Source: Chloroflexi bacterium HGW-Chloroflexi-10 (GTDB lineage: Bacteria; Chloroflexota; Anaerolineae; Anaerolineales; Anaerolineaceae). From it: a stretch of 64,000 nucleotides of DNA. The stretch is taken from positions 186,001 to 250,000 of the forward strand of contig PHBZ01000009.1 of NCBI GenBank assembly GCA_002840755.1. The letters run 5' to 3'. Shown here piece after piece: positions 50,416 to 64,000 of this stretch. Below the pieces are notes generated by a model. It was not told the origin of the DNA. It made no database searches and saw only the letters and a list, made by a program, of their open reading frames with translations. The position numbers and the translations under genes were made by a program. Within the stretch, counting starts at the first letter, position 1. Each line of letters starts with the position of its first letter.

Positions 50416-50619
50416 TTATTTTCCACGGTGAAAACGAACATACATGGCTGAGCCTATGATACCCAAAAAAGTTCCAGCCATTGATAGAAAGTAGGAAAAG
50501 AAATTCAAAAAGAAAGTCGATTCAAGCACCTTAACCACCATGAGCATAGGTAAAACAACCCCGGCTATGACCATCAACAGGCCTAATATGATCATGCGTA
50601 CAGGTGTAAAAAATCTCAT
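50416..50619 (-). CDS. small membrane protein at the end of the first opp operon
   Basis: 67 residues from the ATG at 50619, which overlaps the stop of the ATPase gene (ATGA). Two hydrophobic helices (MIILGLLMVIAGVVLPMLMV and FFSYFLSMAGTFLGIIGSAMY) and a basic C-terminus. Coupled to the transporter but of unknown role. Confidence 0.65.
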   Translation of the reverse strand: MRFFTPVRMIILGLLMVIAGVVLPMLMVVKVLESTFFLNFFSYFLSMAGTFLGIIGSAMYVRFHRGK

Positions 50620-51653
50620 TCGTACAACCAGCAAGAAACAAAATGATGTGGTTCCGGCTCGAATTCTACCGGTTCTTTCACCTCGCACACCCCTTTGATC
50701 ATACGCGGGCAGCGCGGGTGAAAACGGCATCCGGAAGGTGGATTGACCAGACTGGGGGGCTCTCCCGGGGGTACTTCTTTCATTACCGTGGCATTATGCG
50801 CATCCGGGTCTGAAGTCGCTTCCAGGAGTGCGTAGGTGTATGGATGCAAAGGATTGTTAACCAACAGGTCTACTTTCCCTTTTTCCACGATCTGTCCGGC
50901 ATACATCACGAAAATTCGCTCTGAGAAATAGCGCACGGTAGAAAGATCGTGAGTTACATAAATAACCGCCAGGTTATGCTCTACCTGTAAACCACGCAGG
51001 AGTTTCAGAATTTCCACACGCACCGAAGCATCCAGCATTGAAACCGGTTCATCGGCAACCAGCAATTTTGGTTCCAAAATCATTGCCCGGGCAATAACAA
51101 TACGCTGCTGCTGCCCACCACTGAGCATATGCGGGTATTTTGATAAGAACTCATTCACCGGAGTCATCTTTACTTCTTCCAAAACTTTGCTGATGCGCTC
51201 CAGCCGCTTTTCCTTATCTTTTACCCCATTAATGATTAATGGTTCTTCCAAAATGGTTTGAACATTCATAAAGGGCGGTAAAGCACCATAGGGATCCTGT
51301 TGTACAAAACCCACTCTGGCGCGATATTCTCTTAATGTTTTTCCTTTAAGATCATTCAGGTTGATGCCATCAAAAATAACCTCACCCTTCGTCGCTCTAT
51401 GTAACGCCAGAATGGTCTTCATCAAACTGGATTTTCCGCATCCGCTCTCACCAACGATGGCAATGGATTCTCCATGGTCCAACTCAAAGTTGACTCCATC
51501 CACAGCCCGCACGAAACCAGCATGTCCAAAACCAAATCGGCGCAATTCAAACCAGACTCTGAGATCTCGTACGGAAAGCAGAGACTTGCCTTTGTTGGCA
51601 TCACCTGCTCTACTAACTTGAATTTCTTTTAATTTTTGTTGTTCGCTCATCAT
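50616..51653 (-). CDS. peptide/nickel-type ABC transporter ATPase (OppF-like)
   Basis: 345 residues from ATG 51653 (tandem ATG codons). Walker A GESGCGKSSL, signature LSGGQQQR, Walker B LLVADEPVSML, switch His in VTHD; C-terminal oligopeptide/dipeptide extension with Cys residues (CRFHPRCPRMIKGVC), which in this subfamily holds an iron-sulfur cluster. One of two ATPases powering this transporter. Confidence 0.95.
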   Translation of the reverse strand: MMSEQQKLKEIQVSRAGDANKGKSLLSVRDLRVWFELRRFGFGHAGFVRAVDGVNFELDHGESIAIVGESGCGKSSLMKTILALHRATKGEVIFDGINLNDLKGKTLREYRARVGFVQQDPYGALPPFMNVQTILEEPLIINGVKDKEKRLERISKVLEEVKMTPVNEFLSKYPHMLSGGQQQRIVIARAMILEPKLLVADEPVSMLDASVRVEILKLLRGLQVEHNLAVIYVTHDLSTVRYFSERIFVMYAGQIVEKGKVDLLVNNPLHPYTYALLEATSDPDAHNATVMKEVPPGEPPSLVNPPSGCRFHPRCPRMIKGVCEVKEPVEFEPEPHHFVSCWLYE

Positions 51654-51667
51654 ATTATTCCCGCATC

Positions 51668-52624
51668 TCACGCATATAACCAGCATTTAACCAGATTTTT
51701 TCCAATCTGGATTGTTGGCGGCTCTTCAGAGCAACGCGCAAAACGTTTTGTGCAACGTTCTGCAAACCGGCAGCCAGTGGGCGGTGAAATCAAACTGGGG
51801 GGCTGTCCTGTTATGAAATCAGGTTCAACATTGCTGCGCAGCTTGGGTACACTGGCCATCAACTTGGCCGAATACGGATGATGCGGTTCACTGAAGAACA
51901 CACTTGCATCACTCAATTCCACGATTTGTCCGGCATACATTACCGCAACCCGGTCTGCTAATTCACTCGAAGTGGCTATATCATGAGTGATCAGGATAAA
52001 ACTGGCGGCTGTATGTTGTTTAATATTCTTAAGCAGGTTAAAAATGTTCGCCTGAGTTAATACATCCAGAGCAGAGGTAGGCTCATCCAAAATGATCAAG
52101 TCCGGGGAGGTAGCCAGGGCCATGGCCAGAGCTACCCGTTGGCGCATACCACCGCTCAACTCAAAGGCATAACGGTTGAGGAAATCTGCAGGCACACCTA
52201 CATGCTGGAACATCTTTAAGGCCTGGGACAGCGCATCTTCTTTTTTAGCGCCAAAGTGAACCATTAACGGTTCTGCAACCTGTTCACCCACTCTTAAGAC
52301 CGGGTTAAGTGCATTCATAGCTGCCTGAGGAACCAGGGACATCTTGACCCAGCGGATTTGCTGGCGAAATTCCTCTTCGGTCAATCCCATCAACTCATTT
52401 CCATTAAGAGACACATTTCCGGAATACTCATGCACATTGCGGGGCAGCAGGCGCAAAATTGCTTTTGCCAGCGAGCTCTTTCCACAACCCGATTCACCCA
52501 CAACCACTATGGCCTGGTTGTGTTCCACTATCAAATTAACACCATCAACGGCCTGCACCACGCCACGCATCGTTTTGAAATGCAGCTTCAGGTTATCAAC
52601 GTTTAACAGGTTTTTTTCTGCCAT
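51668..52624 (-). CDS. peptide/nickel-type ABC transporter ATPase (OppD-like)
   Basis: 318 residues. Walker A GESGCGKSSL, Q-loop region, signature LSGGMRQR, Walker B LIILDEPTSAL, switch His in ITHD, and the C-terminal Cys-bearing extension (CRFAERCTKRFARC). It pairs with the ATPase just downstream, 14 nt away. It starts 4 nt after the permease gene. Confidence 0.95.
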   Translation of the reverse strand: MAEKNLLNVDNLKLHFKTMRGVVQAVDGVNLIVEHNQAIVVVGESGCGKSSLAKAILRLLPRNVHEYSGNVSLNGNELMGLTEEEFRQQIRWVKMSLVPQAAMNALNPVLRVGEQVAEPLMVHFGAKKEDALSQALKMFQHVGVPADFLNRYAFELSGGMRQRVALAMALATSPDLIILDEPTSALDVLTQANIFNLLKNIKQHTAASFILITHDIATSSELADRVAVMYAGQIVELSDASVFFSEPHHPYSAKLMASVPKLRSNVEPDFITGQPPSLISPPTGCRFAERCTKRFARCSEEPPTIQIGKNLVKCWLYA

Positions 52625-52628
52625 AGGA

Positions 52629-53975
52629 CTATATACCTCTCAATCTTGGATTAAAGACGCGGTCAAGAGCAAAGCCCAACATAGCAAAACCCAGACCAGT
52701 AATCATGAGCAATACGGCAGGTTCCAGGATCCAATAATAATACCCCTTATAGAGCGCACCATTCACCTGGGCATCATTGATCATCTTTCCCCAGGTGGGC
52801 AGTACCGGATCCCCAAGACCCAGAACGGCCAGTGAAGCTTCCAGGAATACATATGCAGGAACGGCAGATACCAATGCAGGAATTAACAAAGGGATCATGC
52901 GGGGTATCAAGTAACGGAAGATAATGCGCATACTGCTTGCGCCGTATGCCCGCGCGGCTTCTATGTAGGTCGATTCTTTTACCTGCAAAAATATTGCCCG
53001 ATTGGTTTTAATGGCCCCTGTAAAGATACTCAGTAAAATCGTTACCCCCAATATGACCCAGATACTGCGTGAATAAAAAGTACCGATCATAATAAGAATT
53101 GCCAGAAATGGCAGTACCAGGTTGATTTCGGTAATGCGTTGGATTAATTCATCCAACCAACCTCCAAACCAGGCGCCAATGGCAGCAATGGCCATAGACA
53201 GGACCGAAGTACCCATAGCAGCCAGCAAACCAAATGCAATCGCTATGGGTGCGCCCCATAATAATGGCACCATCAGGTCGCGGCGGGCGTGATCGGTTCC
53301 GGCAAGACCATACGTCTGCCCATGCAAAACAAACTCAACATCAATATCCGAATCCTGTTCAAAGGTAAGTCCTTTGATTAACAACTGGTAGGTACCTTTG
53401 AGCGGTGCCATCGGATCAGAATCCGGAATGACGAACAAGCCTTTCATTACCTCCAAGCCTTTCAAGCGCCGGACCAATTTCTCATCCTGTGAAAAGCGGA
53501 AGGTTTGAGTCTGGCTTACGCCAAAATCGCTGACGCGAATTTCACGGTTGTCCGGGGTAATGAGGTAAACGGAAACAAAAGGTTGTTTTTCAGAATACTT
53601 GGTTTTAAAGTACAAAAACAATTCCTGGGGAAAATCATCATAGTCATAATCAAATGAATAGGTAAACTCAATTGTAGACGTATTCTGTTCTCCAGGAGTA
53701 ACTGTTTTGGTAATACCATCCTCACTCACTTTAACAGCGAAAGATTCGGACATTTTTTCTTTGCTGAACCAGTTATACCAGATTGGCGGCACATTTTTCG
53801 GGTTCTGATACCAGACTTCCTCACCACCGCGCCATAAGCGAATAGCCTCAGCGTAAGGAATTTTGGCCATTGCATAAATTGCCAGGACAACCAATCCTAG
53901 GATAATCACAAGTCCAAAAACAGCGGAAGGATAACGAAATAGCTCTGCAAATGGATTCTTCTTTGTCTTTTTCAT
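52629..53975 (-). CDS. ABC permease (OppC-like) with large extracytoplasmic insertion
   Basis: 448 residues against the usual about 290-310. After the first helix (about 17-35) comes a soluble insertion of about 170 residues (about 45-215), rich in beta-strand sequence (FTYSFDYDYDDFPQELFLYF, VYLITPDNREIRVSDF), before the typical permease core: a TDHARRDLM sequence equivalent to the GTDxxGRD motif, five helices, and the EAA loop (EAARAYGASSMRIIFRYLIP) that contacts the ATPases. The insertion may contact the unusual binding protein of the same operon. Confidence 0.9.
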   Translation of the reverse strand: MKKTKKNPFAELFRYPSAVFGLVIILGLVVLAIYAMAKIPYAEAIRLWRGGEEVWYQNPKNVPPIWYNWFSKEKMSESFAVKVSEDGITKTVTPGEQNTSTIEFTYSFDYDYDDFPQELFLYFKTKYSEKQPFVSVYLITPDNREIRVSDFGVSQTQTFRFSQDEKLVRRLKGLEVMKGLFVIPDSDPMAPLKGTYQLLIKGLTFEQDSDIDVEFVLHGQTYGLAGTDHARRDLMVPLLWGAPIAIAFGLLAAMGTSVLSMAIAAIGAWFGGWLDELIQRITEINLVLPFLAILIMIGTFYSRSIWVILGVTILLSIFTGAIKTNRAIFLQVKESTYIEAARAYGASSMRIIFRYLIPRMIPLLIPALVSAVPAYVFLEASLAVLGLGDPVLPTWGKMINDAQVNGALYKGYYYWILEPAVLLMITGLGFAMLGFALDRVFNPRLRGI

Positions 53976-53977
53976 AA

Positions 53978-55099
53978 TTATTTTCCACCCCCCACTTTTA
54001 CGCGTGGGTCAACCAGTACATAGATAAAATCGAGCAGGAATACGGTTAACGCCAGCATGTAAGCATAAATGATTGTTGAACCGACAATCACGGGTGTATC
54101 ATAAAAACCAATGGCTCTGAATAAAGTTCTACCCAAGCCAGGCCAAAGGAATATTGTCTCAGTAATAGTAGCGCCAGTCCAAAGACCAATCACCAGCAAG
54201 GCAAAATTGGTGATAATCGTTGGCAGCGTAGGCCGTAAGATATAGCGTCGCTCAATATCACGGGATGGCAGGCCTTTTGCCTTGGCCATATCCACATAGT
54301 CTTCGCTGGAATAAATCAAAAAGAATGTACGCCAATTATAAATACTAATAAATAAAGCACTGATAACCAGGGAACCGCCCGGTAAAATTAAGTGTTTTAG
54401 CACACTTAAGATGTAATCCAGGGTGTTTTCAGGTGGAGGTGAATCCACCATCCCGCCAAACGGCAAAACTTTAAACACTGCCGCAAAGATTAAAATAAAG
54501 AAGATACCGTAAAACCAGGCAGGCGCTGCGGAGGTTGGCGATAAAGTAATCACTAACTTATCCCAAAAACTTCCGTAGGAGCGGGATAATGTAAGTGCAA
54601 TAAAGACACTGAAGAAGAACAAAAACAGTTGAGAGGAGCCCATCAACAACAATGTTGCCGGTAAGCGTTCCAGAATGATGTTATTAACCTCTCTCGAACC
54701 ATTGTCGCTAATCATATTCAATGCACGCCCCAAATCAAGCCGTAACGCATTGGAAAGATACCGGAAAGAACGGACCATAAAGGGTGTATCCAGGCCTAAT
54801 CGATGTTCTTCGAGCGCAACCATCTCATCTGCCATGGTTCTACGCGCCTCCGGCGAGATTTGCGAATTAGCCGTCATGGCTGCCACACGCATATTCACTG
54901 TTTCGCGGATATTGTTGCGCATGATGTCATCTACATAACCGCCCATGTTAGCGATCATGATGGTGGTATATACACCAATCACGATGGTGATAAACAACAT
55001 GAGCACCCGTAAAGACATAAAACGTACCACCCGCGCAAACGCGGAAGAGGATGATTTCTTTTTTAAATCAGGAGTACCCGACTGAGGCTCTGATGTCAT
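53978..55099 (-). CDS. ABC permease (OppB-like)
   Basis: 373 residues. First helix at about 30-50, an outer loop of about 90 residues, then the permease core with the EAA-type loop (DYVDMAKAKGLPSRDIERRY) and the C-terminal DPRVKVG end typical of OppB. The ATPase gene order downstream is normal. TGAGGG lies before the ATG. Confidence 0.92.
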   Translation of the reverse strand: MTSEPQSGTPDLKKKSSSSAFARVVRFMSLRVLMLFITIVIGVYTTIMIANMGGYVDDIMRNNIRETVNMRVAAMTANSQISPEARRTMADEMVALEEHRLGLDTPFMVRSFRYLSNALRLDLGRALNMISDNGSREVNNIILERLPATLLLMGSSQLFLFFFSVFIALTLSRSYGSFWDKLVITLSPTSAAPAWFYGIFFILIFAAVFKVLPFGGMVDSPPPENTLDYILSVLKHLILPGGSLVISALFISIYNWRTFFLIYSSEDYVDMAKAKGLPSRDIERRYILRPTLPTIITNFALLVIGLWTGATITETIFLWPGLGRTLFRAIGFYDTPVIVGSTIIYAYMLALTVFLLDFIYVLVDPRVKVGGGK

Positions 55100-55122
55100 G
55101 TTCTACCCTCATATTTAGAATA

Positions 55123-55153
55123 GATAGGGGCAAGTTCAACACTCGCCCCTATC
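55123..55153 (-). promoter_or_regulatory. intercistronic stem-loop after the binding-protein gene
   Basis: GATAGGGGC and GCCCCTATC form a 9-bp stem, extended by AGT/ACT above a mismatch, with a 5-nt loop. There is no T-run. Such structures between a binding-protein gene and its permease genes stabilise the upstream message or trim readthrough. Confidence 0.6.
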
Positions 55154-55188
55154 ATCATAGTTACTTATTCAGACTTAAAAGTTCCGGC

Positions 55189-57783
55189 TTATGGAGCGGT
55201 AACGAATTCAACGTTTGTGAAAGTCGGTTGGCTGACAGTTAAAGGAACCACAGCAATTTCGAGCTTATTGGAACCAGCTTCGAGTTTGCCTGTCATTTCG
55301 GCATCCAGCACTACGCTGTATAAACCATCTTCAACAGCCACTGCTTCACCCACTACAACGATTTCGTTTTTGGCGTTGTACAATAAGAACTTCACCAATT
55401 TGATTTCGTCAGCCGGGTAAGCTGCATCTTCAAAGGTCACATATACATCAAACGTAGCTTCTTCACCAATCTTAACCTGGCCGGGGCCATCAAGTTCAAC
55501 CACAGCAAGTTTCGGCGTGCCGTAGTTAGACCAGCGATCGGAAAGATCAGGATAATCAGCAAATTGTTTGAGGGTCAGGCTCTTCTCGGTTAAGAAAGCT
55601 TTGTCCACATAGTAAGGACCAGTTCCAAGCCAGAAGTGATTGTGCTCTGCGTACCAGGCTTTGGTAGATTCATAGCGGGCGACAGCTTCTTCTGCGGTCA
55701 GGAATTCACTCATGGTCGGGGCGTATGGAATATAGGAATCAGCAATTGCCTGATCCAAATAGGTCGCCAGGATCTCAAGGCTCGGGCCGCCAATCCAACT
55801 GGTCTGTTCGATTTCAGCTTCACCAGCTTTATCAACCGAGTAAGCGACTTCGCCAGCAGCTTCAGCTAAATTGCTGACAGCGATCATCGACCATGCACCT
55901 TCACCATACGCATAGGTGGGGTAAAAGCCGAGGAGCGGGTTAGTGAGATTCAATTCGGCATCCAGTGAATAGGTATCACTGTAATAGTCGATTACGAGCG
56001 GTTCGGTGGAAACGATCTGGAAGCCCTTGAAGTTTTCCATAAAGGGCAGGTAAGCCGGTTCCGCTTGCGGATCATAAATGGCGCTGTCTGTTTTGGCACG
56101 ATCAAAGGTCATGATCATATTCATCACGAAGTCAGCGATGGACAGATTGCTGCCATCATGCCATTTTACGGTCTCGAAGATGTCTGCCGGATAATAGACA
56201 GTGGTCTTGCGTAAAGCGGTCACGCCTTCACCAGCCGGGATAAATGTCTGGGAAACAGCGTCCCAATCAGCCCAAGCGTCAGCAGGGACTACGATTTCAG
56301 GAGCAAATTCGAGGGTAACCCAATCCAGAGTACTTGTAACAGGCAGACCTTCCTGAACGACGACTTCAGCGCGTTCCATTCGCATTGGCCATACCAAACC
56401 GGTGTAAGGATCGTAAATGACCTCACCACTACCACTATTGGTAGCACGGATAGCGCCCTGATCGAAGGCCCAGTTAGAGCCGGCAATCGGGTTCCATGGG
56501 TCGCCAAACATTTCCTGGGTAGCCCAACGGAGTGTGCCGCCTTCTTCGTCTTTGAAGCGCAAGGTGAATGGCCAAATCTGGGCGCCTTCAACGCCGGCAG
56601 CCAGATCAGAGGTTGCAATGACGTTGTTGGCATACGGGATATAGTTTTTACCATCAATCAGGAAAACCTGTAAGGAGTCCTGAAGTGAGAGTTCGAGGGC
56701 GCGTGCCATCATATCATGGCGTTCTTCCATGTTTGCAAATTGAGCAGTTGCCAGTTTGTCGCCTAATTCCTTGAATTCAGGATCGGAGACATTCTGTAAG
56801 AATGCCGGGATACCCTGAGCGCTGGAATCCAGGTACATTTCCTGGAAGATGTTGCTCTGGTCGCGATCCAAAACAGTGGCGCTCCATGCAGCAGTATACA
56901 TGTGCCAGAGGCCATCTTTCGGGTCGGAGCCGATCCAAATCGGGGAGGCTTCACCACCGGTCTTGTATTGGCGATCTACGGTGAAACCAATCTCTTCCAT
57001 TTGTGCGGCAGCGTAATCACCCAACGGGATACGGGTGCCATCCGAGTCGTTACGGATAACGAAAATCAGGGTGACGGGTTCATCTTTATATGTCCATTTT
57101 CCATCTACCAGAGTCGCATCCATGCTTTCCATTTCAGCAGTGATGATTTCTCGGGCTTTTTCCAGGTCATAGGCATAATAGGATTCCAGTTTACGGGCTA
57201 CATCGGCCAGATCAGCATAGTCCGGGAATTGGGTTGTAATGGGGAAGAATTTGGCTAAACCGCCGCCTTCGTAAATTTCCTGGTTGAGGTAATCACGATC
57301 CATCAGCCAGTTCATCGCTTCGCGGATTTTGCGGTTTGAGAATGGATTGAATCTACCATCCACAAATTCGGGGCCAGCCGGGTTGAAGAGCAGATCGTAG
57401 TACAAGCCACTTGCAGTGGAGTAGCTCAATCCAGAATCTTTAATGGCGGGCAGATCTTTTGAAGACAGACCATTGGCATAAATGTCAATAGCGCCAGCTT
57501 CGAGTTGTGTAACAACAGAATCAGCACTGACCACAGAGAAAACGATCTCGTCCAACCAACCGCCCTTGCGGGTGGTTTGAACCACTTCTGGGGTGGGTTC
57601 TTCGGTTGGGGCAGCAACTTCAGTTGCTTCGGCAGGCATTTCAGCAGTCGGTTGCTCGGCAGTCGGTTCAACAGGCTGTTCTACAGGTGCTTCCGTAGGA
57701 ACAGCGGCGGGTTGGCAAGCGGACAGCACCATGCTGGCCACGATAACCAAACCCACAATCAACATTAGGGTATTACGTTTCAT
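55189..57783 (-). CDS. ABC transporter family 5 solute-binding lipoprotein, apparently circularly permuted
   Basis: 864 residues from ATG 57783 (GGAGGAGAAGG upstream). Lipobox VLSAC with Cys23, then a Pro/Glu/Thr linker to about 70. From 75 the sequence follows the later part of the SBP_bac_5 fold (IVFSVVSADSVVTQLEAGAI, then FSNRKIREAMNWLMDRDYL, to about 420). Only then comes the usual beginning (EGGTLRWATQEMFGDPWNPI, ETVKWHDGSNLSIADFVMNM) through GTGPYYVDKAFLTEKSLTL near 735. A C-terminal Ig-like beta domain (about 755-864) follows. The two halves are thus in swapped order compared with OppA/DppA. First gene of a five-component operon with strong promoter and operator-like repeat. Confidence 0.88.
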   Translation of the reverse strand: MKRNTLMLIVGLVIVASMVLSACQPAAVPTEAPVEQPVEPTAEQPTAEMPAEATEVAAPTEEPTPEVVQTTRKGGWLDEIVFSVVSADSVVTQLEAGAIDIYANGLSSKDLPAIKDSGLSYSTASGLYYDLLFNPAGPEFVDGRFNPFSNRKIREAMNWLMDRDYLNQEIYEGGGLAKFFPITTQFPDYADLADVARKLESYYAYDLEKAREIITAEMESMDATLVDGKWTYKDEPVTLIFVIRNDSDGTRIPLGDYAAAQMEEIGFTVDRQYKTGGEASPIWIGSDPKDGLWHMYTAAWSATVLDRDQSNIFQEMYLDSSAQGIPAFLQNVSDPEFKELGDKLATAQFANMEERHDMMARALELSLQDSLQVFLIDGKNYIPYANNVIATSDLAAGVEGAQIWPFTLRFKDEEGGTLRWATQEMFGDPWNPIAGSNWAFDQGAIRATNSGSGEVIYDPYTGLVWPMRMERAEVVVQEGLPVTSTLDWVTLEFAPEIVVPADAWADWDAVSQTFIPAGEGVTALRKTTVYYPADIFETVKWHDGSNLSIADFVMNMIMTFDRAKTDSAIYDPQAEPAYLPFMENFKGFQIVSTEPLVIDYYSDTYSLDAELNLTNPLLGFYPTYAYGEGAWSMIAVSNLAEAAGEVAYSVDKAGEAEIEQTSWIGGPSLEILATYLDQAIADSYIPYAPTMSEFLTAEEAVARYESTKAWYAEHNHFWLGTGPYYVDKAFLTEKSLTLKQFADYPDLSDRWSNYGTPKLAVVELDGPGQVKIGEEATFDVYVTFEDAAYPADEIKLVKFLLYNAKNEIVVVGEAVAVEDGLYSVVLDAEMTGKLEAGSNKLEIAVVPLTVSQPTFTNVEFVTAP

Positions 57784-57905: not shown

Positions 57906-57934
57906 AATATAGCACATTGAAAATCCACTGTCAA
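57906..57934 (-). promoter_or_regulatory. strong sigma-70-type promoter of the first opp operon
   Basis: TTGACA (complement of 57929-57934), exactly 17 bp, TATATT (complement of 57906-57911). Start expected near 57899, inside the inverted repeat. Confidence 0.75.
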
Positions 57935-58035: not shown

Positions 58036-59991
58036 TTATGGTACGGAACACCATTCAGCATATCCAAAATTTTCAATTGACCACAAAATACTGCGGGAAC
58101 TCACATCCAGCGTTTCCAATCCGCAAAAGTCACTTCGGCTTGCCGCGATTTTTAACTGGTAATACAAGGGTAAAACCGGTAGTTCCTCATTAAATATACG
58201 CTGAACTTCAAGGCTGGCTTCCGGGGAAGCTGGATCATCCTCAGAAATCCCAGTCCGGAGAACCCGGCAAGCCGCATCATATTCATCCGATTGGTATCCG
58301 GTGATATTCGCGCCTACCCACAGATTGGCTGCCGTTGGGATTTGCTGGCCGGAATAAAGAAAACAGGGGTTATCCCTTCCACTTTGCCAGGTAAACTGCG
58401 CCAGATCAAAATTACGCCCAAACATGACGCCATCCGGACCGGCTGCGTACAATTCCGTCGGGTTTACATTGCGAACAACCACCTCTATACCGCATTGTGA
58501 CAGGGATGTTGCCAAATCCATGGAAACAGCCACACGCAATTCGGCCTGGGTGGTTACGTAATCCAGAATTAAAAACGTGCCATCCGGCACACCCGGCACA
58601 CCCTGAGCCACCCGCGCCGTAGCTGGATTATCATCATCATCAATCCAACCCATTTCAGCCAGGAGAACCGCGCCCTGAAGTGGATCAAAGGGTAAGCTGG
58701 TCAATGTAGCATCAAAATCGGGGTGTGTCGGCGGGTAAAAAGTGGCTGGAACAATTGAACGATTGACAAAATACTTATTGGCAATACTCTCACGGTCACT
58801 GCAATAGGCAAAAGCCTGGCGCATGCGCACATCCGAAAATAAATCAGGGCGATCAGTTTCCGGTTGAAAGCCATCATCATAACTTGCCGGGGCAATCCCA
58901 AAATCCAAATGTTCCCATTCCGGTCCCTGGGCAAAATAAGCGCGATACAAACCCAGGTTGCTCGATTCAACAACTTCCACCAATTGCTCATCCAGATACA
59001 CATTTGAATCAATCAGATCACATTCCTGAATTTCGAGTGCTTTCAAATTACTGTCTGCATGTGCACCCAGAAATCGGTAGACCAGTTTTTCAAATTTTGG
59101 CAATCCTTCTGCCGCACGAAAATAATTGGGATTACGGGTCAGTTCAATATGGCTGCCTGCCACCCAATTTTCAATCTGGTATGGTCCCCATCCCAGGGGT
59201 GTCTGGTTGGCCATCGGAGCCGTCAATAAATCTACTGCCGACAAACTCTGCCAGGCATGCTGGGGGAGCGGGGACCAAAACAAGTCTTCAAAATGGGCTG
59301 TGGTATAACCTGGAATTCCTGTCCAGGTAAGCGATAATTCATCCTGGGCAGTGTAAGCTGCGGTACGCTCTACATAATAGCGGTTCACCGGTGTATTCGG
59401 GTCGCCGGCAAGCTGATAAGAATAAACTGAATCTGCCATGGTCAGCGGTGTACCATCAGACCATTGAATGCCTTCTTTTAATTGATACTGCAAACTGAGC
59501 TGTTCCATTTGCAGTTCGCTCTCTCCATCCCAGGTGATTGCACAAGACTGATCCCGACAACCAGCCGGGAATACAGTTGTATCTTTCAATAATGGGGTTA
59601 CCGTTCCGCTGCTATCCTGAACCAGGTCACCTAACAATACCGGCACTGTCGCTATCAGGGCAGCACCATTCGTGATGCTGGGGATATCATCTAGAATAAC
59701 CGGTTGAGGTTCAAAATTTACCATATCTACCGGGCCGTCATATATGGCTTCCAGGATGGACCACATGCCCCTGCTGTTGTTTCCATATAAGTATAAAGAC
59801 TGTGGTTCATCTCCCACACAAATAACCAGGCTCTTGGGTGGCTCCGGAGTTGCCGTAACGCTCGGCTGAACGCTTGTTGGAACCGCCTCGGTTAATTGGG
59901 TTTCCGGAGTCGTCTGTGGTGATTGACAGGCCGATAAAACCAACGCACCTGCCAAAACCATTCCAAATATTTTGGTGACCGTTTTCTTCAA
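58036..59991 (-). CDS. ABC transporter family 5 solute-binding lipoprotein
   Basis: 651 residues from a TTG at 59991, chosen because AGGAGGT lies 5-6 nt upstream and the protein then opens with a clean signal peptide ending in the lipobox VLSAC. The domain order is normal for SBP_bac_5: EPQSLYLYGNNSRGMWSILE, then LKEGIQWSDGTPLTMADSVY, GWGPYQIENWVAGSHIELTR, and DVRMRQAFAYCSDRESIA. Two Cys pairs may form disulfides. It is the last gene of the second operon, giving that operon two binding proteins. Confidence 0.88.
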   Translation of the reverse strand: MKKTVTKIFGMVLAGALVLSACQSPQTTPETQLTEAVPTSVQPSVTATPEPPKSLVICVGDEPQSLYLYGNNSRGMWSILEAIYDGPVDMVNFEPQPVILDDIPSITNGAALIATVPVLLGDLVQDSSGTVTPLLKDTTVFPAGCRDQSCAITWDGESELQMEQLSLQYQLKEGIQWSDGTPLTMADSVYSYQLAGDPNTPVNRYYVERTAAYTAQDELSLTWTGIPGYTTAHFEDLFWSPLPQHAWQSLSAVDLLTAPMANQTPLGWGPYQIENWVAGSHIELTRNPNYFRAAEGLPKFEKLVYRFLGAHADSNLKALEIQECDLIDSNVYLDEQLVEVVESSNLGLYRAYFAQGPEWEHLDFGIAPASYDDGFQPETDRPDLFSDVRMRQAFAYCSDRESIANKYFVNRSIVPATFYPPTHPDFDATLTSLPFDPLQGAVLLAEMGWIDDDDNPATARVAQGVPGVPDGTFLILDYVTTQAELRVAVSMDLATSLSQCGIEVVVRNVNPTELYAAGPDGVMFGRNFDLAQFTWQSGRDNPCFLYSGQQIPTAANLWVGANITGYQSDEYDAACRVLRTGISEDDPASPEASLEVQRIFNEELPVLPLYYQLKIAASRSDFCGLETLDVSSRSILWSIENFGYAEWCSVP

Positions 59992-60110
59992 ACAGACCTC
60001 CTTCAGAAAGTCATGATTTCTTTTTAGGTTTGAAACATCCCCCATTATAACCATGCCCCCCCGCTGAAGCAAATCAAATCGGCGTATTAGATCGTATACC
60101 TGTTTAAATA

Positions 60111-60142
60111 CTATGGCGGAGGTGTATTTTCCTCCGCCATAG
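60111..60142 (-). promoter_or_regulatory. intercistronic stem-loop before the second binding-protein gene
   Basis: CTATGGCGGAGG and CCTCCGCCATAG form a perfect 12-bp stem with an 8-nt loop; ACCTG (60098-60102) and CAGGT (60143-60147) can extend it. It lies between the permease stop and the TTG start. Weak T content downstream makes partial termination possible. Confidence 0.6.
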
Positions 60143-60174
60143 CAGGTTCTAAGCAGCAACGATGTTTACAATGC

Positions 60175-61188
60175 CTATTGCGTACCTTGTAATTTTGGAT
60201 CCAATGCATCACGCAATCCATCACCCAGGAAAGTAAACGCCAATACAATCATCGAAACGCAGATTGCCGGAGAAAGCAACAACCAGGGTTGTGCGTTAAT
60301 GGCTGTCTGGCCCTCCAGCATCAATGCACCCCAACTTGTAATGAAAAAGTCTGCCGGATCGGTGGAAGGGATTAACCCCAGTCCTAAATAACCCAGAATC
60401 GCTTCTGTAATGATCATACCCGGAACGGCCATGGCAATCAGAATGATCACCGGACCCAGACTGTTGGGTAATAAGTGTTTATACATGATGCGGGTATCGG
60501 ATGCGCCAATACAACGGGCTGCCTCAATAAATTCTTTCTCTTTCAGCGACAATACCTGCCCACGCACAATTCGGGCAAAACCAACCCAGTTAACAATGGC
60601 TAACGCGCCAAATAACATGAACAAACCATTCATTAACTGGCCTACAAAGGTCTGGCGTAATGTTACCATCACAATAATGAAGAAAAGCAAATCCGGAAAG
60701 GCGTACACCACATCGGTAAAACGCATTAACAGATTATCAATTCGGCCGCCATGATAACCAGCTAATAGCCCAACAAATACACCGATGAATACAATCATCA
60801 GGGTTGGCAGCAAACCTACCATCATGGAAGTTCGGGCGCCATAAATAACCCGGCTCAACACGTCACGTCCCAGCGTATCCGTTCCCAACAAATAATCCGA
60901 GTTGGGTAGTGCGCCATTGGGGCCTTCCGCGATCCACACCGGAGGCAGGAATTTCTGACCGGAAACGATGAGTAAAGGATTATGCGGCGCGACCACGTTG
61001 GCAAACAGGGCAACCACAGTGAAGATGAAGATGACAATCATGCCGATCACCGAGGCTTTATTGCGCACCAGGCGGAACCATGCGTCCTTCCATAAACTGG
61101 TTGGTTTAACCGAAAGTGTGGTCAGGTCGGCAATTTTATGCTCAGGTTTGACCGGTACGACGGGTTTTCCATCAATTGTTTTTATCAT
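60175..61188 (-). CDS. ABC permease (OppC-like)
   Basis: 337 residues. N-terminal OppC segment (SLWKDAWFRLVRNKASVIGM), the LLGTDTLGRDVLSRVIYGAR signature, five further helices, and the EAA loop (EAARCIGASDTRIMYKHLLP). Normal architecture, unlike the OppC-like permease of the first operon. It lies 8 nt after its partner permease. AGAGGTAAT precedes the ATG. Confidence 0.95.
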   Translation of the reverse strand: MIKTIDGKPVVPVKPEHKIADLTTLSVKPTSLWKDAWFRLVRNKASVIGMIVIFIFTVVALFANVVAPHNPLLIVSGQKFLPPVWIAEGPNGALPNSDYLLGTDTLGRDVLSRVIYGARTSMMVGLLPTLMIVFIGVFVGLLAGYHGGRIDNLLMRFTDVVYAFPDLLFFIIVMVTLRQTFVGQLMNGLFMLFGALAIVNWVGFARIVRGQVLSLKEKEFIEAARCIGASDTRIMYKHLLPNSLGPVIILIAMAVPGMIITEAILGYLGLGLIPSTDPADFFITSWGALMLEGQTAINAQPWLLLSPAICVSMIVLAFTFLGDGLRDALDPKLQGTQ

Positions 61189-61196
61189 AATTACCT

Positions 61197-62192
61197 CTAA
61201 TCCAGTTTAATCCGTGGATCCAGGAACACATAGATTACATCTACGCTCACATTGGCAATGGCCACGAGTACCGCATAAATAATGGTGGTGCCCATGATCA
61301 TGGAATAATCACGCTGCGTAATAGCGGTAACGAATGCCCGTCCCATACCCGGGAAACCAAACATCGTTTCGATAATAAAGGACCCGGTAACCAAGAAAGC
61401 CAGGGAGGGCCCCAACATGGTGACGACTGGGATCATGGAATTTTTCAACATATGCCGGAATATTACCAGTCCTTCCGCAAGGCCCTTCGAACGCGCTGTG
61501 CGGATATAATCCTGGCGCATCACTTCCAACATGGAACTGCGGGTCAGACGTGCCGTTCGGGCCATCGTATTAAAACCCAGAATAACTGCCGGCAGAATCC
61601 ATACATTAACTTGATCCCAGGATCGCGGCACAATATTTACCCAATGCAGTGTCGACGCGAAGATAATGATCAAGAAGATTGCCATAACAAAATTGGGTAT
61701 TGAAATGCCCACAGTAACGAAAAACAAACTGACATAGTCTATTAACGTGTTTTGTTTTAAGGCAGAGATGATGCCTGCGGGGATACCCAGAACTATTGCA
61801 AAGATGATTGCATAGAAACCTAACCGCATGGAATAGCCAAAGCGGCTGTAAAGAAAATTTTTGCCTTCAGGAGGCATGAACAGAATTTGTTGGATCGTCA
61901 TCCCACGTTGACGGTAGGAAGGTCCAAGATCACCACAAATTATTCCACAGTCAAACTTACTTTCTTTATCAATATCACCAATAATATAAGCGACAAATTG
62001 TCGCCAGAGCGGTTTATCGAGTCCAAAGTACTCGTCTAACATCCGCTGTGTACTTGGGTCAACCTGACGGGCACTCAAATCCCGATCCCAGGGGCCACCC
62101 GGTGCACTGTGCATCAAAATAAATGTGATTCCGGAAACAACCAGAATAACCGGTATAAGCCACAAAAAACGCCGAATTAGGAATTTTCCCAT
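61197..62192 (-). CDS. ABC permease (OppB/DppB-like)
   Basis: 331 residues. Typical start (FLIRRFLWLIPVILVVSGIT, then LMHSAPGGPWD), outer loop with FGLDKPLWRQF, six helices, the EAA loop (YIRTARSKGLAEGLVIFRHM) and the terminal VDVIYVFLDPRIKLD. AGGAAAG precedes the ATG. It follows the binding-protein gene with a strong stem-loop between. Confidence 0.95.
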   Translation of the reverse strand: MGKFLIRRFLWLIPVILVVSGITFILMHSAPGGPWDRDLSARQVDPSTQRMLDEYFGLDKPLWRQFVAYIIGDIDKESKFDCGIICGDLGPSYRQRGMTIQQILFMPPEGKNFLYSRFGYSMRLGFYAIIFAIVLGIPAGIISALKQNTLIDYVSLFFVTVGISIPNFVMAIFLIIIFASTLHWVNIVPRSWDQVNVWILPAVILGFNTMARTARLTRSSMLEVMRQDYIRTARSKGLAEGLVIFRHMLKNSMIPVVTMLGPSLAFLVTGSFIIETMFGFPGMGRAFVTAITQRDYSMIMGTTIIYAVLVAIANVSVDVIYVFLDPRIKLD

Positions 62193-62240
62193 AGTTCTTT
62201 CCTAAGAAACAAGATTTGAATCAATTTGATTCAGGTTGGA

Positions 62241-62286
62241 CATCTGGCAGGTTTCACATGTTTATGGGCAGGAAACCTGCCAGATG
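62241..62286 (-). promoter_or_regulatory. intercistronic stem-loop between binding protein and permease genes
   Basis: CATCTGGCAGGTTTC and GAAACCTGCCAGATG form a perfect 15-bp stem around a 16-nt loop, 26 nt after the stop codon, without a T-run. It occupies the same place as the hairpin at 55123-55153 in the first operon, suggesting that both operons set binding protein above permease levels this way. Confidence 0.65.
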
Positions 62287-62312
62287 CTTTATGACACTAC
62301 ATTACTACGAAA

Positions 62313-64000
62313 TTAAGGCATCATCGATGTGTCAACGGTGATGGTGGTCGGATCGTTATCGCCCACCCAGCCGGAATCCTGCGGGGTCTGGACAACGCCC
62401 TTCACCCACGGTTTTACCAGATAAGCATTGACGTTGTTCCACATGAAGGCAACCGGAGCGCTGTCTGTCAGCATACGCTGTGCATCAGCGTACAATTGCA
62501 TACGCGGTTCCGGATCGATGGTGGAATCGGCCTGTTGCAATAAATCATCCAATTCCAGGTTGCTATAGCCAATTCGCTCGCCAAAGGCGCCGGTCTTCCA
62601 GTAAACGGATAACCAGTTCTGCGGATCGGGGTAATCTGCACACCAACCCAGGATGAACATCTGCGGGGCAGTATTTACATCTTTGGTCAAAGCGGTGTAG
62701 GTGGTGGATTCAACCGGGTTGAGTTTGATATCGATTCCCAGAACTTCTTTCCACTTGGAAACCAGCCACTCATTGCGGGTACGGTTACGCGGTGTGTCAC
62801 TGAAGGTATCAGTAATTTCAATGGCAACGCCATCAGGTCCAATTAATTGACCGCCTTCAACAGTGTATCCGCCATCAGCCAATGACTGAACGGCTTTTTC
62901 GGGATCAAAACCCCAGCGGCTTTCATCGGCATCATAACCGGGATAGCCCTTGGGAATCCAGGTGAGCGTGGGAGAGCCAAGATTATTCAGCACATCGGTT
63001 ACCCAGGCTTCACGATCCAGTGCATAAGCGAAGGCTTCGCGCACTTTTTGATCGGTGAAGGGGGCTTTCAACTGATGGAACATGACGGCGAAGGTGCAGG
63101 AACCAGGATAAATATTGGCTTCGGCGTTCAAAGTCGCATCATTCTGAATGGTGGCCAGATCTTCGGCGCCAATCGGGACGATATCGAATTCATTATTCTT
63201 GTAAGCTTCAAAGGCTACCGCGGTATCGGTGATATAGCGATATTCAAGATCATACGCAGCAACATTGCGCCAGTAGTTCTGGTTGGGAACGAAATACGCG
63301 CGCACATAGGGTTCCAGATTTTGCAGAACGAATGGACCGTTACCAATTTGGAATTTGGAAGAATTCCACCAGATATCGCCGCCCTCGGCAATTAATTCTT
63401 CTTTAGCCGGGAAGGTTACCCACAGGGAAGCAACCGTGTGGAAATAAGGAGCAGAACGTTCCAAACCAATTTCCAGGAACAGACAATCGGTCTGTTCATA
63501 ATCTACACAGGCATTGCCAGCGGCATCCTTAGCATGCACTGCAACACCATCGCGCAGAGCGGCTACTTCTTCTTCACTCAATTCACTTGTATCCGTATAA
63601 CGCCAGGCACCTGCGCCTAAGATATCGTCGGTGATCGCAGCATATTCGCCAGCGGTGGCCGGGTCGATATTGCGCATCAGAGAATATTCAAAGCGTTTGG
63701 CGTTTAACAGGGAACCGTCACTGTAGGTCAGTCCTTCACGAATTTTGAAGGTCAATACAGTGGCATCCTCGTTATATTCCCAGGATTCTGCAGCAGCAGG
63801 AACGGTCACCAGATCGTTGTCCTGACGGGTCAAACCTTCGTACATCAATTTAAGGTGCGCAATTTCATTTACGAAGGATGATTTCTGAGGATCGATCGTA
63901 TCGGGATAACTACCCAGATTGACACGCAGCAGAGCATCTTTTTCCGGTTCTGCCATCTCTTCGGCGGATGGTGTGGCGGTAACAACAACTTCCACTACCT
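62313..64000 (-). CDS. ABC transporter family 5 solute-binding protein, N-terminus beyond the window
   Basis: The frame is open to the window edge (561 full codons plus stop seen), and the signal peptide and lipobox lie outside. Visible from the edge: a Val/Thr/Glu linker, LRVNLGSYPDTIDPQKSSFV (start of the mature domain), MYEGLTR, FKIREGLTYSDGSLLNAKRF, NGPFVLQNLEPYVRAYFVPN, and VREAFAYALDREAWV, in the normal order and most like peptide-binding OppA proteins. It is the first visible gene of the second operon. Confidence 0.92.
   Translation of the reverse strand, partial: VVEVVVTATPSAEEMAEPEKDALLRVNLGSYPDTIDPQKSSFVNEIAHLKLMYEGLTRQDNDLVTVPAAAESWEYNEDATVLTFKIREGLTYSDGSLLNAKRFEYSLMRNIDPATAGEYAAITDDILGAGAWRYTDTSELSEEEVAALRDGVAVHAKDAAGNACVDYEQTDCLFLEIGLERSAPYFHTVASLWVTFPAKEELIAEGGDIWWNSSKFQIGNGPFVLQNLEPYVRAYFVPNQNYWRNVAAYDLEYRYITDTAVAFEAYKNNEFDIVPIGAEDLATIQNDATLNAEANIYPGSCTFAVMFHQLKAPFTDQKVREAFAYALDREAWVTDVLNNLGSPTLTWIPKGYPGYDADESRWGFDPEKAVQSLADGGYTVEGGQLIGPDGVAIEITDTFSDTPRNRTRNEWLVSKWKEVLGIDIKLNPVESTTYTALTKDVNTAPQMFILGWCADYPDPQNWLSVYWKTGAFGERIGYSNLELDDLLQQADSTIDPEPRMQLYADAQRMLTDSAPVAFMWNNVNAYLVKPWVKGVVQTPQDSGWVGDNDPTTITVDTSMMP

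Follow-up and report, generated by a model that had tools for sequence, protein, structure and literature searches.

Among natural permutations of binding proteins, our literature searches found only TpMglB-2 (Tp0684) of Treponema pallidum, a glucose binder. This "Cluster Bc" protein is a lipid-anchored binding protein of an ATP-binding cassette (ABC) importer, whose permutation its authors suggested to be an adaptation to tethering (PMC4990184). They ascribe to it the sugar-binding cluster B (type I) fold, while the available part of their account mentions no altered permease (PMC4990184). Here we describe an operon of Chloroflexi bacterium HGW-Chloroflexi-10 which likewise encodes a naturally permuted binding protein, in this case one of 864 residues that matches the OppA type, and in which both permeases are altered. 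The operon (50616-57783, minus strand) is located in a stretch of 64,000 nucleotides, henceforth termed the window (assembly GCA_002840755.1, contig PHBZ01000009.1, positions 186,001 to 250,000), of a genome of 6.57 Mb in 101 contigs. Since TpMglB-2 is described as another fold, we take the permuted OppA-type family to be an independent case. Our literature searches yielded no account of an OppA-type protein with permuted order, most subscription papers being outside their reach.

The closest relative of known structure, by sequence as well as by structure, is TkOppA, the OppA of Thermococcus kodakarensis (PDB 7fi3), which according to the title of the entry binds a pentapeptide. Both halves of the 864-residue protein match TkOppA, whose own polypeptide has the normal order. 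With regard to the entire importer, the genes of the operon encode, in this order, the binding protein, two permeases that resemble OppB and OppC, and a pair of ATPases, which is the subunit plan of DppABCDF and OppBCDF from Escherichia coli (PMC12136057; 8z1y, 8z21). The E. coli systems, however, employ a binding protein of normal order. In E. coli DppB the segment joining the first transmembrane segment (TM1) to the next short helix, the so-called scoop, sits in the cleft of the binding protein (PMC12136057). Within NCBIfam, the models of the Opp4 importers (NF045467, NF045472, NF045476) score best for the three proteins scanned, i.e. the binding protein, OppC and OppB, yet none exceeds its curated cut-off, the scores being far below it (39.6 of 650, 146.7 of 450 and 140.3 of 350 bits).

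Sequence and predicted structure of the permuted binding protein

As read from its sequence, the 864-residue protein starts with a signal containing LSAC at residues 20-23, which is followed by a linker rich in Thr, Pro and Glu extending to about residue 73. Pfam assigns SBP_bac_5 as the only family and does so merely for residues 77-309, corresponding to positions 148-355 of the 368 positions of the profile (93.9 bits with a gathering score of 32.4). Comparison of the single protein with the TkOppA chain (7fi3_A) by means of phmmer gives two stretches in swapped order: residues 490-741 align with chain residues 62-303 and residues 143-303 with chain residues 400-569 (whole-sequence E-value 1.8e-15). 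As the two swapped stretches are obtained with a single sequence already, the permutation is not a matter of chance. A profile of 41 rows (A1), composed of P0001 and 40 of 44 binding proteins (L017, L025, L029 and L062 were left out; handles in L denote loci, those in G genomes) with two kinase fusions trimmed to their binding-protein part, aligns positions 75-311 with chain residues 329-584 (3e-30) and positions 482-736 with chain residues 63-307 (1.1e-19). Once the halves of six members are put back into the order of OppA, the resulting profile matches 7fi3_A in one single stretch, with positions 75-594 covering chain residues 62-583 at an E-value of 2.5e-47.

The predicted model of the protein is of high confidence (mean predicted local distance difference test score, pLDDT, 90.8; predicted template modelling score, pTM, 0.86). 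Its best structural match is that of residues 68-413 to residues 332-755 of 7fi3_A (Z 26.8, root mean square deviation (rmsd) 3.0, 339 aligned residues). Foldseek also ranks 7fi3_A first with TM-scores of 0.34 and 0.41, low values which are expected since only about half of the protein can be aligned in order. All structural rows listed for the model are of the OppA/DppA/NikA type or otherwise of the SBP_bac_5 type. A circular permutation had been claimed by the first-pass annotation, a model's reading of the window from its letters. This claim is borne out by the swapped matches to 7fi3_A, the collinear match of the restored order and the confident model, in which half A comes first; a fold with the lobes in normal order, named there as one refuting outcome, is not seen. 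The half boundaries given at that time (75-420 and 430-745) are close to those found here (74-413 for half A and 414-757 for half B), the coordinates and lengths of the binding protein, OppB and OppC are confirmed, and the extra beta domain reported to follow half B is present in the model at about residues 761-864. The copies of 740-777 residues in G435 lack the latter domain, as does the kinase fusion L060. In terms of the OppA domain names, we take half A to represent the rest of domain I plus domain III. The 864-residue protein is, as judged for both halves from the alignments and for half A from the model as well, a circularly permuted version of a binding protein of the OppA type (cluster C), which may explain why Pfam marks only part of such proteins.

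Searched with separate models of the two halves, all 132 distinct relatives, gathered with the permuted protein as query, carry half A ahead of half B. This includes 82 of 82 proteins from the named loci (80 loci, the best 80 of 224 confirmed places) and 68 of 68 proteins of the tree. The 44 local binding proteins of ordinary type comprise 17 with a match to half A only and 27 without a match to either half; none matches both. Searches with the binding-protein, the insertion (see below) and the order-restored profiles were performed on the same sample of 301 genomes of the phylum, genome counts being derived from the match rows. With the order-restored profile, no collinear relative was found at 1e-15 among these genomes, three candidates having been scored per genome. 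The profile does reach this threshold in 30 genomes, in 25 of which pieces are matched in swapped order. Half A alone is matched in G236, G371 and G433 and half B alone in G435. In G211, a match of 4.1e-16 over residues 301-559 of a 577-residue frame spans the junction, and we read this frame, from its alignment, as a probable ordinary, distant binding protein. None of the matches runs collinearly along most of the profile. These observations are best explained by the permutation having been fixed early, with every family member found in the sample being permuted and, as far as the alignments tell, at the same cut site. A lipobox, searched for as a simple pattern, is found in the binding proteins of 59 of 65 complete operons (that of the window and those of 64 named loci), which also form the basis of the scoop and co-divergence comparisons described below. 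In L062, L109, L200, L202 and L205 the permuted protein is longer by about 100 residues, which are inserted near position 520.

Outer segments of the two permeases

The shared core of OppC starts at residue 225 compared to residue 84 in E. coli OppC (8z21_B), and at residue 224 compared to residue 58 in the Opp4C model, which amounts to 141 and 166 extra residues, respectively, part of which may reflect a longer N-terminus. The soluble insertion of about 170 residues formerly assigned to this permease is thus real by two comparisons. With its core starting at residue 84, E. coli OppC has no room for such a domain. AlphaFold2 predicts the insertion to adopt a jelly-roll-like beta-sandwich between TM1 and TM2. 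In blocks of ten residues its pLDDT amounts to 75-92 for residues 91-220 but to only 60-66 for residues 71-90. The whole OppC model is of middling quality (mean pLDDT 68.1) and superimposes on 8z21_B with a Z of 17.4 and an rmsd of 4.4 over 249 aligned residues. Structural neighbours of the insertion are CBM6, CBM61, CBM36 and MAM-type jelly-roll chains (Z 7.8-8.4). The three CBM families appear at Z 7.8-8.2 among unrelated jelly-rolls, and such values may reflect the common arrangement only.

A second alteration, absent from the first-pass annotation, concerns the outer TM1-TM2 segment of OppB, which renders the set of changes larger than claimed there. This scoop segment comprises 51 residues in 63 of the 65 family OppBs (52 and 26 in the other two). 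Its length is 26-37 residues in a comparison set of 30 OppBs of ordinary type, drawn from the collected loci and the window and including near-copies of one another. On our best reading, three outer surfaces, i.e. those of the binding protein, OppB and OppC, have changed together.

Enlargement of OppC does not by itself indicate a permuted binding protein. The rule that any enlarged OppC accompanies a permuted protein was rejected upon inspection of 12 fetched loci in which OppC resides in a large open frame and only the transmembrane start of the insertion model is matched. All 12 lack a homologous insertion and possess an ordinary-type binding protein. Four of the frames are OppC-OppD fusions and several appear long because the frame starts inside OppB. 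True enlargements unrelated to the insertion occur as well. In one of the 12 loci, the source genome encodes an OppC of 411 residues with its core starting at residue 185 beside a binding protein of ordinary order (L223, 8931-10163, minus strand), and G053 encodes one of 584 residues (L105, 2577-4328, plus strand) with a partial ordinary-type binding protein upstream (L184, assigned to this contig from its length).

Co-occurrence and co-divergence

The binding-protein profile produces strong matches (≤1.2e-91) in 29 of the 301 genomes, the next match being 1.5e-13. The insertion profile A3, built from 27 of 29 OppC rows (L107, 9570-10891, was left out as out of frame and L099 as a near-copy of L098), produces 36 matches at ≤1.1e-57 in 30 genomes, the next one (5.6e-10) covering the transmembrane start only. 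All 29 genomes with the permuted protein fall within the 30 insertion-bearing ones while none of the 271 genomes without the insertion contains it. The proposed pairing with the enlarged OppC thus held in the co-occurrence test. A homologous insertion beside a normal binding protein, the outcome named beforehand as contradicting the pairing, was not found among the 301 genomes and the loci examined; the best three first-look candidates per genome were scored for the binding-protein and order-restored profiles and the best nine for the insertion, so that weaker relatives could be missed. The one insertion-bearing genome outside the 29 is G296 (L193, 8470-10956, minus strand), where OppB, enlarged OppC, OppD and OppF are present with no binding-protein gene beside the operon. 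At the place expected for this gene, a 236-residue OppD-like frame is found on the opposite strand.

At the level of loci, 74 of the 80 named ones have an enlarged OppC no more than 6 kb downstream from the gene of the permuted protein. In L121 OppC is split into two frames, which we read as a frameshift, L188 retains 380 residues of OppC at the contig end, and L162 and L164 stop at the contig edge. L123 and L185 have no enlarged OppC within this distance.

The insertion is the least conserved part of the operon, its mean identity over the 65 complete operons being 0.42 compared to 0.73 for the OppC core. With OppD, OppF and the OppC core regressed out, the divergence of the insertion correlates most closely with that of half A (r 0.59), a value reached by none of 2000 label shuffles. 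Such co-divergence is in keeping with an insertion that touches the binding protein, yet it is no proof of contact.

Several observations weigh against the reading of a permuted binding protein that changed together with both permeases. The co-divergence is not specific, as none of the 2000 shuffles reaches the values of half B (0.42), OppB (0.41) or the beta domain (0.40) either. The match of half B to OppA is one of sequence only, and the Foldseek TM-scores to 7fi3 given above are low. In one set, 5 of 19 permuted loci lack recognised importer genes downstream of the permuted protein, a sixth meeting the contig edge. As such proteins exist, not all uses of the fold depend on the enlarged OppC. 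Conversely, in 6 of the 30 genomes an insertion-bearing OppB-OppC fusion is located away from any recognised binding protein. These fusions make up six of the 36 insertion matches and are second copies; no binding protein was recognised in the surrounding 19-kb stretches, and all six genomes also hold a separate insertion-bearing OppC. Finally, due to kinship among the genomes, the 29 genomes represent far fewer than 29 independent events.

Proposed mode of action and alternative explanations

We consider it likely that the operon encodes a variant type I importer of the Opp/Dpp class with a permuted and probably lipid-anchored binding protein, in which the outer TM1-TM2 segments of both permeases are remodelled. 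Both the nearest solved relative and the Opp type of the operon point to an oligopeptide as the most likely substrate. For the unusual substrate once considered, no evidence was obtained, the nearest solved relative, 7fi3, being a pentapeptide binder by its title. The altered docking geometry proposed along with it appears plausible because both permease changes affect TM1-TM2 outer segments and the corresponding segment of E. coli DppB occupies the cleft (PMC12136057). The permuted protein would hold an oligopeptide in its cleft and then dock onto OppB/OppC, whereupon the long OppB scoop would enter the cleft and the OppC jelly-roll might brace one lobe or seal the outer cavity. By analogy with E. 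coli DppABCDF, the two segments together would most likely grip the permuted protein, open it and close off the cavity, and ATP would power import as in other type I importers. Lipid tethering could favour the permutation here as proposed for the T. pallidum protein, given that most operon members resemble lipoproteins, though it is seemingly not required given the members without a lipobox and the forms with S-layer domains.

More tentatively, and with somewhat less than even confidence, we propose that these systems form a separate class of Opp importers derived from one ancient permutation. The new chain ends would have freed or created a docking surface to which both permeases adapted by co-evolving a new grip (the beta-sandwich and a scoop lengthened from about 29 to 51 residues), so that docking, opening and sealing would differ from those of the solved Opp/Dpp importers. 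Later, Ser/Thr kinases would have acquired the module as their outer sensor, and proteins with S-layer domains would have taken it up as well. An event of the kind known from T. pallidum is here seen in the large fold of peptide importers, where it is preserved in many genomes and accompanied by matched changes in both permeases, and the natural pairs make the role of the TM1-TM2 outer segments of Opp permeases directly testable by comparison.

With respect to the origin of the swapped order, a gene split followed by rejoining, or a fusion of halves from two binding proteins, may be put forward in place of tandem duplication and trimming. Consistent with this, no duplicated intermediate was seen among the relatives collected and the halves show unequal affinities to the 44 ordinary local binding proteins (17 matched by half A, none by half B). 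However, the solved structure closest to half A is also the closest to half B, and it is matched in one stretch once the order is restored, which favours a single ancestral protein. While split and rejoining is by itself as possible as tandem duplication and trimming, we regard this group of origins as less likely than not overall. An origin of the order in mere artefact, be it of alignment, assembly or a frameshift in an ordinary binding protein, could draw on nothing but the partial Pfam match and is next to inconceivable. It is ruled out by the single open frame, collinearly conserved in many genomes, by the swapped and restored matches and by the high-confidence model.

The function may also be viewed differently. 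If the OppC jelly-roll were a carbohydrate- or glycan-binding module within the same permuted importer, it would present an oligosaccharide or glycopeptide substrate or grip the envelope, with no part in docking. The CBM6, CBM61 and CBM36 chains among the weak structural neighbours of the insertion point in this direction, as do mannan, chitin and cellobiose binders among the solved binding proteins of the same fold. A Z of about 8 is, however, no more than a widespread arrangement may give, TkOppA as the closest solved protein in both sequence and structure is a pentapeptide binder, and a role in glycan binding leaves the change of the OppB scoop unexplained; we therefore deem this reading improbable. 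Still more doubtful, with a slender chance at best, is that the permuted protein serves chiefly in sensing and that its link to transport is secondary. Two Ser/Thr kinase fusions, two S-layer-domain forms and several copies without importer genes nearby are in line with such a role, but the enlarged OppC lies downstream in the great majority of the named loci (74 of 80), and in G135 the kinase and stand-alone copies share a starred clade with the operon copy, as paralogues of a transporter protein would.

Distribution, variant architectures and genomic context

At the level of the order, 80 of 201 genomes show a match of 5.9e-38 or better; at a threshold of 0.001 the number rises to 154, but many of these matches cover signal and linker only. 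Among the matches listed, relatives bear the names Anaerolinea, Longilinea and Bellilinea. Symbiobacterium, Spirochaetaceae and Bacillota bins are also listed, as judged by their titles only and with misbinning being possible. The tree contains a distant group of seven permuted proteins (support 100). In the four N-termini of this group which were inspected, half A begins soon after the signal, as in other members, and the OppCs of the group (472-498 residues) carry the insertion. Plasmid and phage collections gave no insertion match in plasmids and three partial matches of the second-half region with 24-29% identity.

Two loci encode a Ser/Thr kinase domain linked via a hydrophobic segment to the permuted protein, namely L047 (14758-18363, minus strand, 1202 residues) and L060 (7817-11311, minus strand, 1165 residues), with Pkinase E-values of 2.6e-38 and 2.7e-55. 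No report of kinases with solute-binding domains was found in a literature search. G135 harbours a kinase copy, two stand-alone copies and an operon copy in one starred clade, from which it follows that the sensor of the kinase may stem from a transporter protein. In L203 (2088-5141, plus strand, 1018 residues) and L204 (1036-4056, minus strand, 1007 residues) the permuted protein is extended by three C-terminal SLH (S-layer) domains. No importer genes were recognised near L203, and in L204 the contig edge follows 1 kb downstream. Permuted proteins without recognised OppB/OppC nearby are further present in L047 (6984-12143), L055, L058, L061, L096, L185 and L207. L058, L061 and L207 belong to one starred clade of six together with L059, L208 and L209, the latter three lying near contig edges.

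Fusions of OppB with insertion-bearing OppC, 872-1056 residues in length, are found in L046 of the source genome (7410-10154, minus strand), L194-L198, L107 (7724-10891, plus strand), L149 and L190. No binding protein was recognised near those in L046 and L194-L198, while in L107, L149 and L190 the fusion comes after a normal operon. The L107 fusion has TPR repeats in front.

The features of the operon are compiled in Table 1. Its permeases both belong to BPD_transp_1 (Pfam), and the presence of oligo_HPY on both ATPases assigns it to the Opp/Dpp type. The binding-protein and OppB genes are separated by 89 bases, the following two junctions by 2 and 4 bases, and the OppD and OppF genes overlap.

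Table 1. Positions of the importer genes, their altered parts and the upstream promoter-like site in the window
Feature	Position	Strand	Basis
Permuted OppA-type binding protein, 864 residues, probable lipoprotein	55189..57783	-	Pfam, profile, model; lipobox read from sequence
Half A, residues 74-413, canonical second half, now first	56545..57564	-	Model versus 7fi3_A and profile match
Half B, residues 414-757, canonical first half (GGTLRWATQ to past TGPYYV), now second	55513..56544	-	Profile match
Extra C-terminal beta domain, residues 761-864	55192..55503	-	Model strands 761-863, nearly all beta
OppB-like permease, 373 residues	53978..55099	-	BPD_transp_1 2.5e-26; Opp4B top NCBIfam model, below cut-off
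Extended OppB scoop (outer segment between TM1 and TM2), residues 50-100, 51 residues	54800..54952	-	Segment-length comparison
OppC-like permease with extracytoplasmic insertion, 448 residues	52629..53975	-	
Predicted beta-sandwich (jelly-roll-like) domain between OppC TM1 and TM2, residues 79-218	53322..53741	-	AlphaFold2 model
OppD-like ATPase with oligo_HPY C-terminal region	51668..52624	-	ABC_tran 2.7e-28, oligo_HPY 1.5e-15
OppF-like ATPase with oligo_HPY C-terminal region	50616..51686	-	ABC_tran 3.7e-33, oligo_HPY 4.6e-16
Promoter-like site TTGACA-17-TATATT, 11/12, 5' of the operon	57906..57934	-	Site count in region 15, shuffle mean 13.1, not above

Counts of promoters and terminators in the region show no excess over shuffles. 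Directly upstream of the operon, the window contains an ordinary Opp cluster with two binding proteins of normal order (58036-63995). In 28 of the 80 named loci, the flanking sequence collected contains relatives of the 707-residue protein of this cluster.

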